From NCBI GenBank assembly GCA_017545365.1, contig JAFWOP010000017.1, forward strand, positions 1-44,752: 44,752 bases of DNA, in the 5' to 3' direction. The notes below the pieces were generated by a model, which saw only the letters and a program-made list of their open reading frames with translations, was not told the origin of the DNA and made no database searches. The DNA comes from Bacteroidales bacterium. GTDB taxonomy: Bacteria; Bacteroidota; Bacteroidia; Bacteroidales; P3. The translations under genes and the position numbers were made by a program. Of the stretch, positions 5,024-36,941 are shown piece after piece (position 1 is the stretch's first letter; every line of letters begins with the position of its first letter).

Positions 5024-7969
5024 ATGAACAATATACCAATCATAATGAAACGTTTAAAGCTTTTGCTATTAGTCAGCGCAGTATGCTTCTGTTGCCCCGA
5101 AGTTTTCGCACAATCGGTATACTGTCCGGGATTTCACAATCCCACCAATTTCAACTCCAACCCCAGTGCCGCGGGTTCATGGTCGGCCCGTGTGGGCGAC
5201 CGAGTGCATGGCAGTAGTGGCAGCACAGGCACCAACGTGCTCAGCACCTGCAGCCGTCCCGACAAGACCCCCATCAAGGGACACGCCAACATCACCTCTT
5301 CATCACTCTACTCTGGCTACTGCCCCCACCGCTGCGGCTCCTGCAACCAGTGCTCACTCTTCGACGGCCACGACCAGCGGTTCCGCATCTACACCGCCGA
5401 AGATGCCGGGCTGGACCAGTTCACCATCAACAACGGACAAGGCATGCAGCGCATACCCCGCCGACACCTCACCAGCATCCGACTGGGCGACATGCGTGCC
5501 ACCGGCCAGTGCGTGAGCAATATCAACAGCAACGGCAACGACAAGGGTGCCGAAGCCCTCTTCTACACGATGAAGGTGGTGCCACAGAACTCGCTCCTGT
5601 TCATCGACTATGCCATCGTCGCCTGCCGCTATACCCACACCCCGGCCGAAGCGGGCGAATTCCTCATCCGCGTTTGCGGCAAGAACAGCACCACCGGGCA
5701 GTGGAACAACTTCCCCCTCAACGACAGCCTATGGTTCAACGTGCCCGCCCCCGCCATCGGCGGCACCCTGCCCGCCCCATGGGTCGAAGGACTGCCTGGC
5801 GGCCCGCAAGGCGCCACCACCTGCGGCTACTGCTACAAACCCTGGACCCGTTGCGCCGTCAGCCTCCTCGACTACCTCTACGACTCGGTGCGTGTGGAGA
5901 TGTACACCAGCGACTGCGTCTACGATGTCGACCCCATCTATGCCTACATCGCCGGCGACTGCCAACCCATGCAAATCACCTCCTCCGGCTGCCCGGCAGG
6001 CGAATCTAATGCCGTAGACACCCTCTCGGCGCCCAAAGGCCTGATATCCTATACTTGGTACGTATCCTCCACCGGCTACTCCGGCCCCACCGCCAACCCT
6101 ACCATGATGCAGACCCTCCCCTTCCGCATGGTACAGAACACCCTCACTCGCGTATACGAAGATGACGACCCCCGCGACACAAGCTACCGATATGTTGCTC
6201 GTACCGAGGACTTCATCGTCAGACAAGCATCCGACGAACACAACATCGGCGACACTGTCGGTGTAACCACGTTCAAATGTGTCATGACCTCCGCCATGGA
6301 CCCCCAAAAGCCTTTCCAATCCGTAGTCTACGCAACGGTCAGCAACACCAAACCCATTATCAACGCCTCAATAATACTCGACTGCGACAGCATGGCGCAC
6401 CTTGACGCACGAGCCTACATCCCCTACCAAGGCTGGGACGCACCCCGCGTGGTCGACAGCCTCACCTCATGGGTAGTGCACGACGGCAGTGCCGCAGACA
6501 CCCCGCCCATCGACACCCTTGTCGGAATGGAAGTCGACTACAAATTCCCCGACAGCAACAACCATGCCATTGTCCTCACCGTTTATACCAGCGACAGCTC
6601 CTGCAACACCAGCCGCACCTACGTGGTCAAACCCGCTGTGCGCCCCGACATCAAAATCGACATCAACAAGCGCATCCTCTGCGTGGGTGACAGCGCCATC
6701 ATCAGAGATACCACCAAAAACGTGGCTTCCCGCAAATGGGTCTTCGCCGACACCGTCATCAGCGACTCCATGCCCGGCTTCAACCTCGACAACACAGCCA
6801 CCATCACCCGCACTTTTGAAGAGTTCGAGAACCCCTTCATGCTCATCTGCTCAAAAGAAACCGTCTTCGACGACAACTTAAACGACGACAACGACTCCGT
6901 ATATATATGTTTCGACACCCTGTACGACACCATATATTTCTTCCGCGACCCTGAAATCACCTACAGCAACGACACCATCATCTGCAACGGACATGAAGCC
7001 CACGTAACCGCCACAACCCCCGTCTCAGGCTGCTCCTTCTCATGGTACCGCCACAAAGACCTCTCCGGCGAAACCCCGATATGCGAGGGCAACGTCCTCT
7101 ATGTGCGCCCCACACAGGAACGCACCCGCTACTACCTGAAGATAACGGTCGACTCCGTCGGCTGCGTGGCATGGGACAGCGTCGACATCTCCGTCATCTC
7201 CACCAAAATCACCGCCTACCCCTCTCACGCCAAACACTGCCCCGGCGACAGTGTCCTCCTGGTCGGTACCGGGGCCCTCAACTACGAGTGGTCCTCCTAC
7301 CCGCCCGACCCCGACCTGGCCAGACAGGCCCATAACGACTCCATCTACGTCTCCCCCAACGAAGACACCCGATACTACATGGTGGGCTATGCCGCCGACA
7401 GCTGCGACGTGGCCGCAATCAGCATCCTTGTACAGAACGTGCCCCTGCCCCTCATCAGCTACAACTACACGCCTAGCTACATCGACTCCGAAGTACCGAC
7501 GGTGAACTTCTCCGACCTCTCTCAAAACCGCGACCACACCCGCTGGGTCTTTGGCGACGGAGCCATCTCCACTGGCCAATATGTCACTCACCACTTCGAC
7601 ATCTACGCCGAGAACTGCAACACCATCACCATGCAGACCTACAACACACTGGGCTGCGCCAACGACACCACTTTCACCATCCCCATCGACACCTTCGGGT
7701 TCTACCGTCCCAACATCTTCACTCCCAACAAGGCCACCAACAACACCTTCTCCATCATCTGCCCCAGCGACCTCGACAAGTTCCATATCGCCATCTTCAA
7801 CCGTGGCGGCATGTTGGTCTTCGAATCCGACGACCAGCACTTCAGCTGGAACGGCACCAAGGACGGCACCCCGATGCCGCAAGGCACCTATCCCTACGTC
7901 ATCACCTACACACGCGCCGGCACCGTGTCGGAATACCGCGTCCACGGCACCGTGACCCTCATCCGTTAA
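5024..7969 (+). CDS. Large secreted protein with PKD-like region and T9SS type B sorting domain
   Basis: A 981-aa protein with a signal peptide (RLKLLLLVSAVCFCCPEVFA). An ATG at 5045 (MKRLKLL...) gives a more standard signal peptide than 5024 and may be the true start. The N-terminal third is Cys-rich (GYCPHRCGSCNQCSLFDGHD) and unlike any domain I can name. The middle holds repeated Ig/PKD-like segments; one near residues 825-885 has FSDLSQNRDHTRWVFGDG and typical turns. The last ~95 residues (FYRPNIFTPNKATNNTFSI, IFNRGGMLVF, WNGTKDGTPMPQGTYPYVI) are the CHU_C/gliding-associated domain. This domain sends proteins through the T9SS to the surface or medium. Function otherwise unknown. Confidence 0.85.
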   Translation: MNNIPIIMKRLKLLLLVSAVCFCCPEVFAQSVYCPGFHNPTNFNSNPSAAGSWSARVGDRVHGSSGSTGTNVLSTCSRPDKTPIKGHANITSSSLYSGYCPHRCGSCNQCSLFDGHDQRFRIYTAEDAGLDQFTINNGQGMQRIPRRHLTSIRLGDMRATGQCVSNINSNGNDKGAEALFYTMKVVPQNSLLFIDYAIVACRYTHTPAEAGEFLIRVCGKNSTTGQWNNFPLNDSLWFNVPAPAIGGTLPAPWVEGLPGGPQGATTCGYCYKPWTRCAVSLLDYLYDSVRVEMYTSDCVYDVDPIYAYIAGDCQPMQITSSGCPAGESNAVDTLSAPKGLISYTWYVSSTGYSGPTANPTMMQTLPFRMVQNTLTRVYEDDDPRDTSYRYVARTEDFIVRQASDEHNIGDTVGVTTFKCVMTSAMDPQKPFQSVVYATVSNTKPIINASIILDCDSMAHLDARAYIPYQGWDAPRVVDSLTSWVVHDGSAADTPPIDTLVGMEVDYKFPDSNNHAIVLTVYTSDSSCNTSRTYVVKPAVRPDIKIDINKRILCVGDSAIIRDTTKNVASRKWVFADTVISDSMPGFNLDNTATITRTFEEFENPFMLICSKETVFDDNLNDDNDSVYICFDTLYDTIYFFRDPEITYSNDTIICNGHEAHVTATTPVSGCSFSWYRHKDLSGETPICEGNVLYVRPTQERTRYYLKITVDSVGCVAWDSVDISVISTKITAYPSHAKHCPGDSVLLVGTGALNYEWSSYPPDPDLARQAHNDSIYVSPNEDTRYYMVGYAADSCDVAAISILVQNVPLPLISYNYTPSYIDSEVPTVNFSDLSQNRDHTRWVFGDGAISTGQYVTHHFDIYAENCNTITMQTYNTLGCANDTTFTIPIDTFGFYRPNIFTPNKATNNTFSIICPSDLDKFHIAIFNRGGMLVFESDDQHFSWNGTKDGTPMPQGTYPYVITYTRAGTVSEYRVHGTVTLIR

Positions 7970-28399: not shown

Positions 28400-28888
28400 A
28401 TGAGAAAAAGAATCAAACGCAATGGCACCCTGATGGCTTCGAGCAACGGCAGACAGACCCATCTGAGGCGGGAGCAGCTCAGGGTGTTGGAAAAGGACTT
28501 CCAGAAGCAGCTGGTGCACTACCACCAGCGGGTAAAAGAGGGCTACGAATGGGAGACCGACGAGCCTGCGGTGATGCGCGGCGAGAGCATGGTGATGGAG
28601 GAGTACAGCGACAAGCTCTGGGACTTGGGACTGCACGTGGAAAGCCTGATGCAGCTGATGCAGGCGGCCACGCATCTAATTGACTGGGAGCATGTGTTCA
28701 TCGGAGCTGACACCAACTACCACCACCGCAATCTCTCACGCTTCCGCCACCTCGTGAGCCGCTGCTGGGAGCGTGTACGCGAAGACCCCACGCTGGAACC
28801 CCTGCTGGCAGAAAGCACTGCCTATGACTGGTTCCTCGAGATAGAACGGAAATACGCCCACTGCAAAGGCACCGGCTGGATAGGCTAA
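28400..28888 (+). CDS. Protein of unknown function (162 aa)
   Basis: I do not recognise it. It is soluble-looking with no signal peptide or membrane segment. It starts basic (RKRIKRNGTLMASSNGRQ), then is largely helical and charged (LRREQLRVLEKDFQKQLVHYHQRVKEGYEW). A Trp/His/Arg-rich middle (DWEHVFIGADTNYHHRNLSRFRHLVSRCWERV) and YDWFLEIERKYAHCKGTGWIG complete it. GC content and codon use match the core genes, so it is probably real. It has a good -7 box and a long structured leader, and its stop is 17 bp from the convergent stop of the Card1-like gene. Confidence 0.7.
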   Translation: MRKRIKRNGTLMASSNGRQTHLRREQLRVLEKDFQKQLVHYHQRVKEGYEWETDEPAVMRGESMVMEEYSDKLWDLGLHVESLMQLMQAATHLIDWEHVFIGADTNYHHRNLSRFRHLVSRCWERVREDPTLEPLLAESTAYDWFLEIERKYAHCKGTGWIG

Positions 28889-28905: not shown

Positions 28906-30087
28906 TCAGTCGAGCTCGCCCGTGATGCGGCGCATCTGCTCCGCCACGCGGGCCATAAGGTCGGCGTTGACCAGCGTCCCCTTGGGGCAAAGGGTGATGC
29001 CCATGATGGCGGCCACCGTCTGCAGGCGGTGGTCGTAGTCGTTCTTGAGGGTGAAAATGTAAGAATGGCTGGAAGGTCCTAGGAAAGACTCCTTGAGGGC
29101 CGAGGCCTTGTAGACTATCTCATTGAACATGTGGTCGGAAGCCACACCCGTCTTGCACTCCACGACAAAGAGCGTGTTGGCCTTGATGAAGACCACGTCC
29201 AGCTCGTTGTTGTGCTGGGTGCCGGGCCGCGCTATGCGCACCCCGATGGCTATCTGCTGGGGATTGACCAGACGCAAGAGAATATAGTAGACATACTCCT
29301 CGAACCAGCCGCCGGTGAGGTAGTCCACCTCGTCGGGCTGCAGCATCTCCTTTTGGCTAGGCACAAAGCCGAAGGCAGAGAGCAGGGCGGGCAGACCGGG
29401 GACGGCATTGTGATGGTGGGGGCCGCCAAAGGTGATGTCGTGGATAGGCCGTGGGCGGCGCATACCACGGTAGTTGACGCGCAGCTGCTCGATGGCATCG
29501 AAGGCACGGTGGGGCAGGCGCCGTGTGCGGAAGCATTCGAAGACGCGCAGGGCATCCGCCTCGCTGCGGATGGGGCGGTGGGAGCGCTCATGGAGGTCGT
29601 GGTTAAGTCCGTGGAGCCTGAAATACTCCGACATGGTCATGCGGTAGCGGATGGGCTCGATGGTGTCGGCATCGTCGTCGGGGTTCCCCACCGCCTTGGG
29701 GTCGAAGGGTGAGTTGATGATGAGGTTCTCACGCGTCTGCACGTAGAAGAGGCGGGCGTCGAACTGTGCAAAGACATGCTGCACGGCCAGCGCCAGATAC
29801 CGGGTGCCGCCCGCCAGGTTGACCCAGTACTCGGTCTCGGGCGACAGCCGCGACTGGAGCCGTCGGCTGATGCGTTCGTAGATGTAGCTGTCTTCGTCGC
29901 GCTTGAAGGCGACGAAGTTGATATGCTCTTCGGGCAGGCGGAACAATGCCGCATAGCGGGCCAGCAGCTGGCGGTTCTCGCGGGTGGCTATGAAGAGGAG
30001 CCGGTCGCCCTCCTGATAGTACTGCTTCAGGAAGAGGTAGGCGGCCAATGGCTCGTCGGGGTCGAATATGTTGACTAGTGTTTTCAT
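28906..30087 (-). CDS. Card1/Can2-like CARF-domain PD-(D/E)XK nuclease (DUF1887 type), without CRISPR
   Basis: A 393-aa protein beginning at MKTLVNIFDPDEPL. An in-frame ATG at 30105 is rejected for the ATGA overlap at 30087-30084. The N-terminal half looks like a CARF ligand-binding domain: Rossmann-type strands (DRLLFIATRENRQLL, HINFVAFKRDE) and the ligand-loop motif WVNLAGGTRYLALAVQHVF (about 89-106). The C-terminal half matches the Card1/DUF1887 nuclease: TGGWFEEYVYYILL, then NNELDVVFI (Asp297) and TLFVVECKTG (Glu310, Lys312), the D-x12-ExK core of PD-(D/E)XK enzymes. Characterised Card1/Can2 proteins are activated by cyclic tetra-adenylate from type III CRISPR Cas10 and cut nucleic acid. 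No Cas10, other cas gene or CRISPR array is in the window. It overlaps a T9SS cargo gene by 4 bp. Confidence 0.8.
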   Translation of the reverse strand: MKTLVNIFDPDEPLAAYLFLKQYYQEGDRLLFIATRENRQLLARYAALFRLPEEHINFVAFKRDEDSYIYERISRRLQSRLSPETEYWVNLAGGTRYLALAVQHVFAQFDARLFYVQTRENLIINSPFDPKAVGNPDDDADTIEPIRYRMTMSEYFRLHGLNHDLHERSHRPIRSEADALRVFECFRTRRLPHRAFDAIEQLRVNYRGMRRPRPIHDITFGGPHHHNAVPGLPALLSAFGFVPSQKEMLQPDEVDYLTGGWFEEYVYYILLRLVNPQQIAIGVRIARPGTQHNNELDVVFIKANTLFVVECKTGVASDHMFNEIVYKASALKESFLGPSSHSYIFTLKNDYDHRLQTVAAIMGITLCPKGTLVNADLMARVAEQMRRITGELD

Positions 30088-32060
30088 TTCAATACTTCTA
30101 TGCACCCCTGGTGCTGGGTGGCGTGGTGGATGCCGCGACCTACAAAGCGGTAAAAGTAAGTGCCGGCAGGGATGCGGCGCTCGGCAGGGTTCCAGAACTG
30201 GTCGTCGCGGCTGATGTTCTCGGCGCGGTAGACGATGCGGCCGGTGCGGTCGGCGATGACGAGCGAATTATAGGGGAAGCAGTGGTTCTCCACCAGCCCG
30301 CCGATAACGAAACGGTCGTTGATGCCGTCGCCGTTGGGCGTGACCACGTTGGGGAAAGTGAGCGAGCTGTCGCAGTGATCGCCATTCCAAAAGATATAGA
30401 GGTTATAGTATACGATGCTGTCACACCCTGCCTCGTTGACAAGGAGGAAGGGCAGGTTGCTTACCGTATCGGTGAAAAGGCTGTCGAGGAAGGCCCAAGG
30501 CAGCTGGCCTTCCATGATGGTGTCGTAGATGGCGGTGTCGCTGGCGGGGATGACGAAGAGGCGGCAGGTAACGATGCTGTCCTGTCCAAGGCTGCCGGGC
30601 AGGACAACGTTGAAGACTGTGTCGCCAAAAGCGGTAATGCCATGCAGCGTGTAGGGCAGCTGGTCGGGGCAGATGTAGTAGAGGGTGGTGTCGTAGATGT
30701 TGTCGACGACGGTGAGGTGGTAGTAGAGAAGGGTGTCGCATGCGGGCAAGACACCCTGCAGCAACAAGGTGTCAATTACCGAAGCGGTGAAGGCGTGGCC
30801 GCGGAAGGACCAAGGGAGCTGGTTTTCGACAATGGTGTCGTACCATGTGAGCGTGTCGTCGGGGATAAGCCGGAGGATATAATAACGCATCGTGTCGCAA
30901 TCGAAAGAGCGGATATTGGCCGAGTCGACACCCGGATGGAGGAAGGTGAGCGTCCCCCAGTGGTAGGGCAGCTGTGAGTGGCAGATGCTGTGTGTCATGG
31001 TATCGCGGACAAAGCAGCCGCATTTGGGGCCAGTGAGTAGGATGCTGTCGCTCGCCCAGCATTCGCCCAGCATCTCCAAACGGTTTATGCAGAGATATGG
31101 CACCGTCTTGTAATAGGCTGTAGGGGTCTCATAAAAGCGGAATATCGCCACACCGTGTGGCCGTGGGACGAAGTTGAAGTGATGGGTACTGACGTTGCTT
31201 TGTGTTGGTGGCACATTGGTCTGGGGCAGCTCTATCGATGCAAAGACCAGCGTGGTGTCGCGCAGCGGAATGTTATGTCCCATGGAAAAGAAATGATGCG
31301 CGGTGTCGTCTATATGAATGGAATAGACGATAGAGGGCAGCGCGGCTAATGAGTCACTGTGGTATCCGTTGTAGAAGTAGCGGAAACGGGAGGTATTGAG
31401 TATAAAGGTGTGGTTGCGAATGGGGTTCCACATCATGATGGTGTCGACATAGAAAGGGCTATATGCGGTGTCGAAAGGCACCTGGCACAGCGACTGCGTA
31501 AGCATGTTGGCCACTGAAGAAATTTGAGTGGGGTCGTAATCGAAGAAGGGCGGCACCGAGTCGCCATAGCAGCGTAGCGTGTCGGTGCGGATAATCATTG
31601 AATTTGAGTAGTTGGGCATGGTCAACTCAGGACAGAGCAGTTGTGGATTGGCGTTCATAGTGATGCTCCTAGGGCTGCAGAGGTCGCCGTCTGAGGGCGA
31701 GTCGATATAGTCATATCCAGTATGTGAGCGGACAAAGCCCGGCTTTTGCCAGTGGAACAGATTGATGTCGTGAAAATAGGCTGAAAGCTTGACCATGACG
31801 GTATCGCCACAGCCGAGGGTGACCCACTGCTCCTCGGCGGTGCTGTCGGGGAAGAGCGAGGAAGGATACCAGAACAAACTGTCGGCCCCTGCGGTCGCCC
31901 TCAAATGATAGCGTACCGAATCCAACTCAGGCGCGATGCCGGGGAGCAGCACCGTGTCCTCCACAATGAAATGCACCTCACAACTGTAAGGTATCTGCGC
32001 ATGGGAGGCCGTAAAGGCCAGCAACATGGGGAGAAGCATCAGGTATAATCGTTTCGGCAT
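30084..32060 (-). CDS. Secreted repeat protein with T9SS type B sorting domain
   Basis: A 658-aa protein with signal peptide (KRLYLMLLPMLLAFTASHAQ). The middle contains at least two imperfect ~75-residue repeats built on YDTIVENQLPWSFRGHAF / YDTIMEGQLPWAFLDSLF and CDTLLYYHLTVVD / CDSIVYYNLYIFW. A related half-repeat (SICHSQLPYHWGTLTF, YICPDQLPYTLHGITAFGD) is also present. The last ~90 residues (LTFPNVVTPNGDGINDRFVI, SLVIADRTGRIVYRAENI, RIPAGTYFYRFVG) are the CHU_C/gliding-associated domain that directs T9SS export. Function otherwise unknown. It follows the DUF389 gene by 22 bp, and its TGA overlaps the ATG of the Card1-like nuclease. Confidence 0.87.
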   Translation of the reverse strand: MPKRLYLMLLPMLLAFTASHAQIPYSCEVHFIVEDTVLLPGIAPELDSVRYHLRATAGADSLFWYPSSLFPDSTAEEQWVTLGCGDTVMVKLSAYFHDINLFHWQKPGFVRSHTGYDYIDSPSDGDLCSPRSITMNANPQLLCPELTMPNYSNSMIIRTDTLRCYGDSVPPFFDYDPTQISSVANMLTQSLCQVPFDTAYSPFYVDTIMMWNPIRNHTFILNTSRFRYFYNGYHSDSLAALPSIVYSIHIDDTAHHFFSMGHNIPLRDTTLVFASIELPQTNVPPTQSNVSTHHFNFVPRPHGVAIFRFYETPTAYYKTVPYLCINRLEMLGECWASDSILLTGPKCGCFVRDTMTHSICHSQLPYHWGTLTFLHPGVDSANIRSFDCDTMRYYILRLIPDDTLTWYDTIVENQLPWSFRGHAFTASVIDTLLLQGVLPACDTLLYYHLTVVDNIYDTTLYYICPDQLPYTLHGITAFGDTVFNVVLPGSLGQDSIVTCRLFVIPASDTAIYDTIMEGQLPWAFLDSLFTDTVSNLPFLLVNEAGCDSIVYYNLYIFWNGDHCDSSLTFPNVVTPNGDGINDRFVIGGLVENHCFPYNSLVIADRTGRIVYRAENISRDDQFWNPAERRIPAGTYFYRFVGRGIHHATQHQGCIEVLK

Positions 32061-32082: not shown

Positions 32083-33438
32083 CTATTGGTAACTCGCGGC
32101 GGACTGGATGATAACCACCTGCTCCCTGCCCAGCCGCACGCGGAGCCAAGCCTTTAGCCGCTCTATTTCGGCCTGAGAAAGAGGCGTGGCGGCCTCCAGC
32201 AGAACGGTGTACTGGTTGCCCGACTGGGCATTGGCATCTGACGAGAGCATGCGGGCATTGCCCAACAGCACACGGCTCACCGACGGGTACTGCACCATGA
32301 TTTCGCGCGCCACCGCATCGTTCAAGTCGTCGTGCGAACGGAAAGCGGCCAGCGTGTCGGACAGCCGCCTTACCGAATCGGCCAAGGCTGCCTGCCGTTC
32401 TTCGCTGCTCTTTACAAAGTCCTTGACAAGACCCGTTTCCAACTCGGACAAACTGGCGGCCAGATTGTTGTCGTTAATGATAATCTGGTTGCGGAAGATA
32501 CCGTAATCCTCGGCCTTGTTGTAGAAACTTTCCATCTCCTGCTCCGTGGGGACCGAACCCGCCACGAAGAGTTCCACCGTGGCATGCTTGGCAGAATAAT
32601 GGGTCTTATAGTCATATATGAAGGTGCGCCCGATAGTCCTATTGTCCATAACCAGCTGCTGCACATGGCGGTTAAAGTTGCTCTCACGCACAATTTGCAC
32701 TGCGGAAAAGATGCTGGGCACAATAACCACAAGCAACACTATTGTGACCGACCGTTTAGACAATCGTCGGCGGGCGTCGCTCTCTGCCACCACCGGGTAC
32801 TTTAGATATTTGACTGTGAGGAATGTGGCCAATGCTATAAATACACTATTAATGAGGAAAAGATAAAGGGCGCCAAAGATATACTGGACATTGAACAACG
32901 ACAAACCATAACCGACAGTACACAATGGCGGCATCAGGGCCGTGGCGATGGCCACCCCGCTGATGACCGTGCCTTTCTTCTTGCGCGACTGCTCCAGGAT
33001 GCCGGCAAAACCACCAAAGAGGGCGATAAGCACATCATATATCGTCGGATTGGTCCTGGCCAACAGCTCGGTTGGATTTTCCAATCGCAAGGGCGACAGC
33101 AGAAAATAAACCAACGATGCCCCTATGCTTATCACCACCATGACGAAATAATTCTTCAGCGACGACCTCACCAAACGGTTGTCCTGAATAGCAAGCCCGA
33201 AACCAAAGCCCAAAATGGGGGCCATCACAGGCGAGATAAGCATGGCACCGATGATAACAGGGATAGAATTGACATTCAGACCCACCGATGCTATCACAAT
33301 GGCACAGGCCAGGATAAACACATTAGCCCCCTGAAAACGGATGCCGCTGCGGATATTGGCCGCAGCTCCTTCGCGGTCGAGGTCGTCGGACATGTTCACC
33401 AGCCTCAGCAATCTATACTTTAAGCCTTTTTGAGACAT
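32083..33438 (-). CDS. DUF389 family membrane protein
   Basis: A 451-aa protein with the DUF389 core: GIRFQGANVFILACAIVIASVGLNVNS, PVIIGAMLISPVMAPILGFGFGLAIQDN, NYFVMVVISIGASLVYFL, GVAIATALMPPLCTVGYGL and YIFGALYLFLINSVFIALATFLTVKY. This is five to six transmembrane helices in the first ~240 residues. The soluble C-terminal half (about 260-450) contains a coiled-coil stretch (SLSELETGLVKDFVKSSEERQAAL) and a repeated small domain. The family is a conserved but uncharacterised inner-membrane protein. It is first in the run leading to the T9SS protein and the CARF nuclease. No clear promoter box is seen in 33439-33500. Confidence 0.88.
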   Translation of the reverse strand: MSQKGLKYRLLRLVNMSDDLDREGAAANIRSGIRFQGANVFILACAIVIASVGLNVNSIPVIIGAMLISPVMAPILGFGFGLAIQDNRLVRSSLKNYFVMVVISIGASLVYFLLSPLRLENPTELLARTNPTIYDVLIALFGGFAGILEQSRKKKGTVISGVAIATALMPPLCTVGYGLSLFNVQYIFGALYLFLINSVFIALATFLTVKYLKYPVVAESDARRRLSKRSVTIVLLVVIVPSIFSAVQIVRESNFNRHVQQLVMDNRTIGRTFIYDYKTHYSAKHATVELFVAGSVPTEQEMESFYNKAEDYGIFRNQIIINDNNLAASLSELETGLVKDFVKSSEERQAALADSVRRLSDTLAAFRSHDDLNDAVAREIMVQYPSVSRVLLGNARMLSSDANAQSGNQYTVLLEAATPLSQAEIERLKAWLRVRLGREQVVIIQSAASYQ

Positions 33439-36566: not shown

Positions 36567-36941
36567 TTATTTCTTCTCTGCGCACTCTTTCTTGCAGCCT
36601 TCGTGGTTGCCCTTGCAGCCTTCGTGGTTGCCTTTGCAGCCTTCGTGGTTGCCTTTGCAGCACTCGTGCTTGCCTTCGCAACCTTCGTGATTGCCCTTGC
36701 AGCAAGCGGTGTCGCCAGCGTGGAGCTTGCAGCAGCAATTCTCATTGGTGCAGTTCGCACATTGGGTGGCAGCGCAGGTGGTGTCCTCGCAGTTGCACTG
36801 GTGGTGGCAGCACTCATGCTCATGCTCGCAGCAGACCTCGGTGGTATCGGTGGCCTGTTCAGCGGGGGCATTGTTGTTGCAAGCGGACATACCGAAAGCA
36901 AAAGCGGCAGCGACGATAGCAGTTAAGAAAACTTTCTTCAT
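36567..36941 (-). CDS. Cys/His-rich heptad-repeat lipoprotein, metallothionein-like
   Basis: A 124-aa lipoprotein (signal VFLTAIVAAAFAFGMSAC, lipidated Cys21) containing 22 Cys and 10 His. After a short acidic spacer come CCEHEHECCHHQCNCEDTTC, CANCTNENCCCKLH and five heptads of the form GNHEGC[K/E] (residues 83-117; the second is GKHECCK). The composition strongly suggests binding of several soft metal ions at the cell surface or in the periplasm, but no family is recognised. It lies inside the decarboxylase operon, between the carboxyltransferase and OadG genes, with a hairpin on each side. A link to the His cluster of the OadG extension is only a guess. Confidence 0.8.
   Translation of the reverse strand: MKKVFLTAIVAAAFAFGMSACNNNAPAEQATDTTEVCCEHEHECCHHQCNCEDTTCAATQCANCTNENCCCKLHAGDTACCKGNHEGCEGKHECCKGNHEGCKGNHEGCKGNHEGCKKECAEKK
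36591..36695 (-). repeat. Tandem 21-bp repeats encoding GNHEGCK heptads
   Basis: Five adjacent 21-bp units within the Cys-rich lipoprotein gene encode heptads GNHEGCE, GKHECCK and three GNHEGCK. The last three units are almost identical at DNA level (CAGCCTTCGTGGTTGCC on the plus strand), so copy number probably varies by slippage between strains. Confidence 0.85.

Follow-up and report, generated by a model that had tools for sequence, protein, structure and literature searches.

Nucleases of the Card1 kind, which are activated by a signal, normally serve CRISPR immunity. The closest described proteins are Card1 and Can2 (PF09002 plus PF23400; PDB 6wxw, 6xl1 and 7bdv), and passages of one study give Ser19, Thr42, Lys99 and Tyr118 as the conserved cA4 contacts in Can1 and Can2 (PMC7969007). 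The same passages treat VC1899 (PDB 1xmx), an orphan DUF1887 protein that has Val and Asp for the Tyr and Thr contacts and weak activity without cA4 regulation, as an orphan CARF protein maybe cast adrift from CRISPR. Genes unlinked to CRISPR-Cas exist in each CARF family according to the corresponding sections of PMC4012209, and there, as here, they include members of PF09002; those sections mention neither a clade within Bacteroidales nor vertical inheritance nor a change of motif. The term 'orphan' is absent from the main text of PMC11229360 and PMC12669027. Our literature search, which had most subscription journals outside its scope, retrieved no title on the Bacteroidales clade described here and no paper joining CARF, CRISPR-independent and cyclic oligonucleotide. 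Orphan CARF proteins such as VC1899 are thus already known, and what is new here is a clade with an altered motif.

We have analyzed such an orphan in a Bacteroidales genome. It resembles Card1 and Can2 in domain order, fold over the full length, PD-(D/E)XK residues, CARF core and the Tyr contact. Unlike them, it has no type III locus nearby, and in most genomes of its clade Cas10 was not detected; the motif reads A-G-G-[TSN]-R instead of T-G-G-T-K, the Ser contact is mostly replaced by Asp, the loop is longer and acidic, and no Csx20 neighbour was found.

The nuclease gene and its surroundings

The window, i.e., the whole stretch of 44,752 nucleotides that was analyzed, contains the following features (residues are those of the nuclease).

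28906..30087, minus strand: orphan Card1/Can2-type CARF nuclease gene, 393 aa
29707..30087, minus strand: CARF domain, residues 1-127
29797..29823, minus strand: CARF signature VNLAGGTRY, residues 89-97
29653..29718, minus strand: acidic loop that follows the CARF core and is longer than in linked relatives, residues 124-145
29038..29337, minus strand: PD-(D/E)XK nuclease core, residues 251-350 (PF09002 match, residues 253-351)
29293..29313, minus strand: GGWFEEY motif, residues 259-265
29152..29208, minus strand: catalytic NELD...ECK, residues 294-312 (Asp297, Glu310, Lys312)
30084..30087, minus strand: ATGA, shared by the stop codon of the upstream gene and the start codon of the nuclease gene
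30084..32060, minus strand: gene upstream of the nuclease and overlapped by its start; the product has a CHU_C type IX secretion signal
32083..33438, minus strand: DUF389 membrane protein, upstream neighbour, also present in part of the near clade
28400..28888, plus strand: convergent 162-aa gene with no Pfam match, homologues next to the nuclease in 12 further loci (39-81% identity)

The initial annotation had claimed a Card1-type identity, and this was borne out by the profiles, with PF09002 and PF23400 matching at 59.1 and 33.7 bits (curated cut-offs 26.4 and 24.6), and by structure comparison, in which the fold is that of Card1 across the full length. Membership in the DUF1887/Card1 sequence family (PF09002 plus PF23400) is certain in practice.

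The gene lies in a housekeeping stretch of chromosome with aminoacyl-tRNA synthetases, Dxs, TGT and a carboxyltransferase. None of the 38 other window ORFs picked as likely genes matched a PADLOC family at 1e-5 and no CRISPR array appeared among the short-spaced direct repeats of the window, in agreement with the annotation, which had seen no CRISPR locus. An Rfam scan of the window returned one tRNA and nothing else. Among the same 38 ORFs there were an AAA-ATPase_like and a PDDEXK_9 match, on one ORF each and perhaps on the same one. Separately, six 42-nt copies in steps of 21 nt were found at 36571-36717, inside a minus-strand ORF of 124 aa (36567-36941) with repeat units that by eye resemble Gly-Asn-His-Glu-Gly-Cys-Lys and possibly bind metal.

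The -4 overlap with the upstream gene was the same in 13 of the 30 loci examined, the window included. In three further loci (L022, L024 and L026) there is a one-base overlap between the nuclease start and a gene whose product belongs to the same protein cluster in all three; in L022, the one member checked, it is phosphoglycerate kinase. We searched for a shared partner gene and rejected it: neighbours vary between sub-clades (the CHU_C protein, phosphoglycerate kinase, or sugar and ribonucleotide reductase genes), and therefore no partner was accepted. We do not regard the CHU_C-signal protein as belonging to the mechanism.

Two types of Card1 in Bacteroidales

Relatives were gathered as 34 loci from named genomes and by genome searches, with wider stretches fetched for some. 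One locus (L071, in G142) had a weak PF09002 match and no Card1 in its wider stretch and was excluded from the carriers. The 71 sequences were divided by their CARF motif into 47 with N-L-[AS]-G-G-[TSN]-R, including the window protein and one added by hand (L007), which we call orphans, and 24 others in 21 loci, mostly with T-G-G-[TN]-K. A-G-G-[TS]-R was also found in 117 of the best 120 database homologues. When the products of nine genes of the III-A locus L031 served as BLAST queries, homologues of its cas or Csx20 genes were found in 0 of the 47 orphan loci versus 18 of the 21 other loci, where a cas gene was near the nuclease in 11 (L031 itself among them) and Csx20 without a cas gene in 7 more. 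For L155 only the helicase matched; its genome (G101) has a Cas10 some 3 kb away from the nuclease. The contigs of L163 and L165, each shorter than 9 kb, gave no homologue of an L031 gene. Since some orphan loci are short and a single reference locus misses divergent cas genes, this result covers the near neighbours. A split by neighbours reproduces the motif groups except for L155, L163 and L165.

A tree was built with 68 of the 71 sequences (the second copies in L034 and L154 and the short L150 were left out). All 47 orphans fall on one side of a single branch with support 100/100, adjoining L030, L031 and L086 (support of the join 84/62). In L031 and L086 the nuclease, which is not of the orphan type, carries T-G-G-T-K and is part of a locus with Cas6, Cas10, Csm2-5 and Csx20. 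The root was set at the midpoint for drawing, and therefore a single escape of the clade from CRISPR is likely but unproven. L031 also has, between its Csm5 and its linked Card1, a gene (6310-7602) with weak pAgo-like PADLOC matches (2e-14), a homologue of which precedes Card1 in L030.

A conserved but different CARF pocket

The residues that align with Ser19, Thr42, Lys99 and Tyr118 are 9, 35, 96 and 115 in the orphans. At these places Asp is found in 38 of the 47 orphans (residue 9, whose placement depends on a one-residue gap that it adjoins), Thr in 28, Arg in all 47 and Tyr in all 47. The 22 linked sequences (L163 and L165 left out) have Ser in 18, Thr or Ser in 21, Lys in 21 and Tyr in 22. 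The window protein, with Asp9, Thr35, Arg96 and Tyr115, thus has two identical contacts, one conservative and one acidic. It also has Ala92 and Arg96 where the CRISPR-linked relatives have mostly Thr and Lys, a difference that is partly by construction as the motif itself decided which sequences were counted as orphans. Lys or Arg at the place of residue 96 is described as a general CARF feature in the relevant part of PMC4012209. With two of the four cA4 contacts kept and an Arg that retains the positive charge, cA4 could still be bound.

Over and above the contacts, Gly93, Gly94, Arg96, Tyr97, Tyr115 and Asn121 are invariant in 47/47 orphans. The span corresponding to residues 121-154 is 30 residues in 43 of the 47 (34 in the window protein and one other) versus 20-26 in 20 of the 22 linked sequences, and the longer loop that follows the CARF core is modelled with low confidence. 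In the nuclease, Glu263, Asp297, Glu310 and Lys312 are present in all 47 orphans; the last three, already named as the PD-(D/E)XK core in the initial annotation, are invariant in the 22 linked sequences as well.

Cas10 in the carrier genomes

The Cas10 palm domain was detected in 10 of the 31 genomes of loci L001-L034, and RAMPs marked the same 10; rpoB (PF00562) was recovered in 25 of 30 genomes. Cas10 was present in eight of 39 orphan-carrying genomes, leaving 31 without detectable Cas10, and was not found in six further carriers: G036, G059, G069, G162 (family draw), G393 and G537. The genome of the nearest relative (G001) gave neither Cas10 nor RAMP. Altogether, 8/45 orphan carriers have Cas10 versus 10/19 carriers of the other type in the order draw (Fisher p 0.007; of these 10, seven come from the order-draw search and the others are G029, G031 and G046). 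As Cas10 was found in only 10 of these 19, some of which have Csx20 next to the nuclease gene, the search must miss some systems or the systems be incomplete or broken. The absence of Cas10 from any single one of these assemblies therefore proves little. Even with this incomplete detection, orphan carriers lack Cas10 more often than carriers of the other type. Regarding other synthases, mCpol matches appeared in 4/39 orphan carriers, one of them above the cut-off and each inside the Cas10 stretch of that genome, and a SMODS CD-NTase in 3/39.

A different picture is obtained by comparison with non-carriers. Among 149 genomes of the family, 30 had a PF09002 match and 13 had Cas10 (all 13 are listed, and the draw was taken as the same in both searches). 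Cas10 was present in 6/23 orphan carriers versus 7/126 other genomes (Fisher p 0.006) and in 12/29 genomes with any Card1 versus 1/120 without, both counts ignoring kinship. Orphans may rely to some extent on passing type III systems. Taken further, the orphan would be a detached type III effector that still senses cA4, kept on standby and served in trans by transient type III systems, which is also one of the two options offered by the initial annotation. Besides this enrichment, the incomplete detection of Cas10, the Tyr contact and (in 28/47) the Thr contact, and the Card1s of III-A loci among the nearest relatives outside the clade are in its favour.

However, the 31 of 39 carriers without Cas10 and the rate below that of the other type argue against it, as do the Asp at the Ser phosphate contact in 38/47 and the vertical descent described below. 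There are moreover genomes that hold both types: in G004 and G017 the orphan is accompanied by a T-G-G-T-K Card1 that belongs to a type III-A locus (L086 and L031, respectively), and G016 has an orphan plus a T-G-G-T-K Card1 beside Csx20 (L030), on a contig other than that of its Cas10. The Card1 in the type III locus of G014 (L088) is divergent, and no Card1 was seen in the type III stretches fetched from G010 and G015 (L087 and L089). We regard the standby effector as rather unlikely, about one chance in four. From the count of carriers without detectable Cas10, the second Card1 of G004, G016 and G017, and the different pocket, the evidence leans toward the other option of the annotation, a different signal.

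One metagenome-assembled genome (G006) contained two orphan copies (L006 and L011), with 82% and 69% identity to that of the window, which could reflect a mixture of strains.

Distribution, descent and selection

The distribution is patchy, not universal. PF09002 matches of either type were found in 27 of the 99 genomes of the genus draw and in 24 of the 393 of the order draw, five of the latter with at least 42% identity over nearly the whole length. For 25 genomes we compared the Card1 and RpoB trees, and 15 of 22 splits were common (shuffled mean 0.3, maximum 3 in 500); the distances were also correlated (Mantel rho 0.76, reached by 0/5000 permutations). The orphan clade is thus inherited largely vertically, and its lineages have retained the nuclease over long periods, apparently mostly without CRISPR. 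An origin in mobile elements was rejected: no relative was confirmed in viral contigs (45 pattern matches) and none was found in plasmids or phages. We also sought the upstream CHU_C protein in 36 genomes (G001 and 35 members of the genus without a PF09002 match), and since among the matches listed only that of G001 was full-length, no empty site could be read.

In nine pairs chosen among 24 sequences dN/dS was 0.045-0.135 (one pair, L013/L014, near saturation), and six of them join genomes without detected Cas10. By parts, the values were 0-0.08 for CARF residues 1-123, 0-0.08 for the nuclease core (one pair saturated) and 0.07-0.28 for the middle, indicating purifying selection on both the CARF and the nuclease domains. 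Two other explanations can be weighed here. As proposed for VC1899, the published orphan of the family, the protein could be a degenerate remnant adrift from CRISPR, and Asp9 and Arg96 are common to both proteins. The low dN/dS and the catalytic residues invariant in 47/47 speak against this. VC1899 lacks, in whole or in part, the Gly93, Gly94, Tyr115 and Thr35 kept in the window protein: it aligns C-G with the G-G, and an orphan of its type would have kept no cA4 contact residue, whereas Thr35 and Tyr115 are both kept here. Purifying selection over the clade is a further difference from VC1899. We consider a remnant very improbable.

The protein could equally be a ligand-independent housekeeping nuclease, acting in repair or RNA turnover and using the CARF fold for dimerisation only. 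Vertical inheritance would fit, and so would the start inside the stop codon of the CHU_C gene and the one-base overlaps of L022, L024 and L026. But a domain kept for dimerisation only would hardly be constrained as strongly as the nuclease, nor hold six residues (93, 94, 96, 97, 115 and 121) invariant in all the orphans, and this explanation appears improbable too, if less so than a remnant.

A probable sensor nuclease outside CRISPR

The reading that we prefer, with a probability of roughly 0.57, is that of a ligand-gated nuclease that left CRISPR and is now independent of it, with an altered CARF pocket that answers a nucleotide signal other than, or additional to, cA4. Judging from the sequences, independence of the clade from CRISPR is likely and a changed ligand is plausible, so that the orphan nuclease probably answers a nucleotide signal different from that of its CRISPR-linked relatives. 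For the activation mechanism we infer, by analogy with Card1 and Can2, that the orphan would form a homodimer and that its CARF pocket would bind a small nucleotide different from cA4, or one in addition to it. This ligand is suggested by the Asp mostly found at the Ser place, the invariant Arg at the Lys place and the longer, acidic loop that follows the CARF core. Its binding would open the nuclease, which would then cut DNA and/or RNA, perhaps as a response to stress or phage, from a gene that seems tied into housekeeping operons. A more detailed version, somewhat short of an even chance, is that this Bacteroidales Card1 clade escaped CRISPR once and rewrote its pocket, becoming a vertically inherited sensor-nuclease for a non-cA4 nucleotide, cellular or phage-induced, made by a putative synthase.

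To our knowledge, nearly all that is understood of CARF domains concerns their role in receiving the cyclic oligoadenylates of CRISPR systems. The present clade, in which the nuclease is intact, the pocket is conserved yet different and most carriers have no detectable Cas10, offers a clean test of whether there is CARF signalling without CRISPR. Genomes with paired paralogues, such as that of Candidatus Colimorpha merdihippi (L018 and L031), supply the internal control. If true, the reading of a signal other than cA4 would represent a CRISPR-independent CARF signalling pathway.
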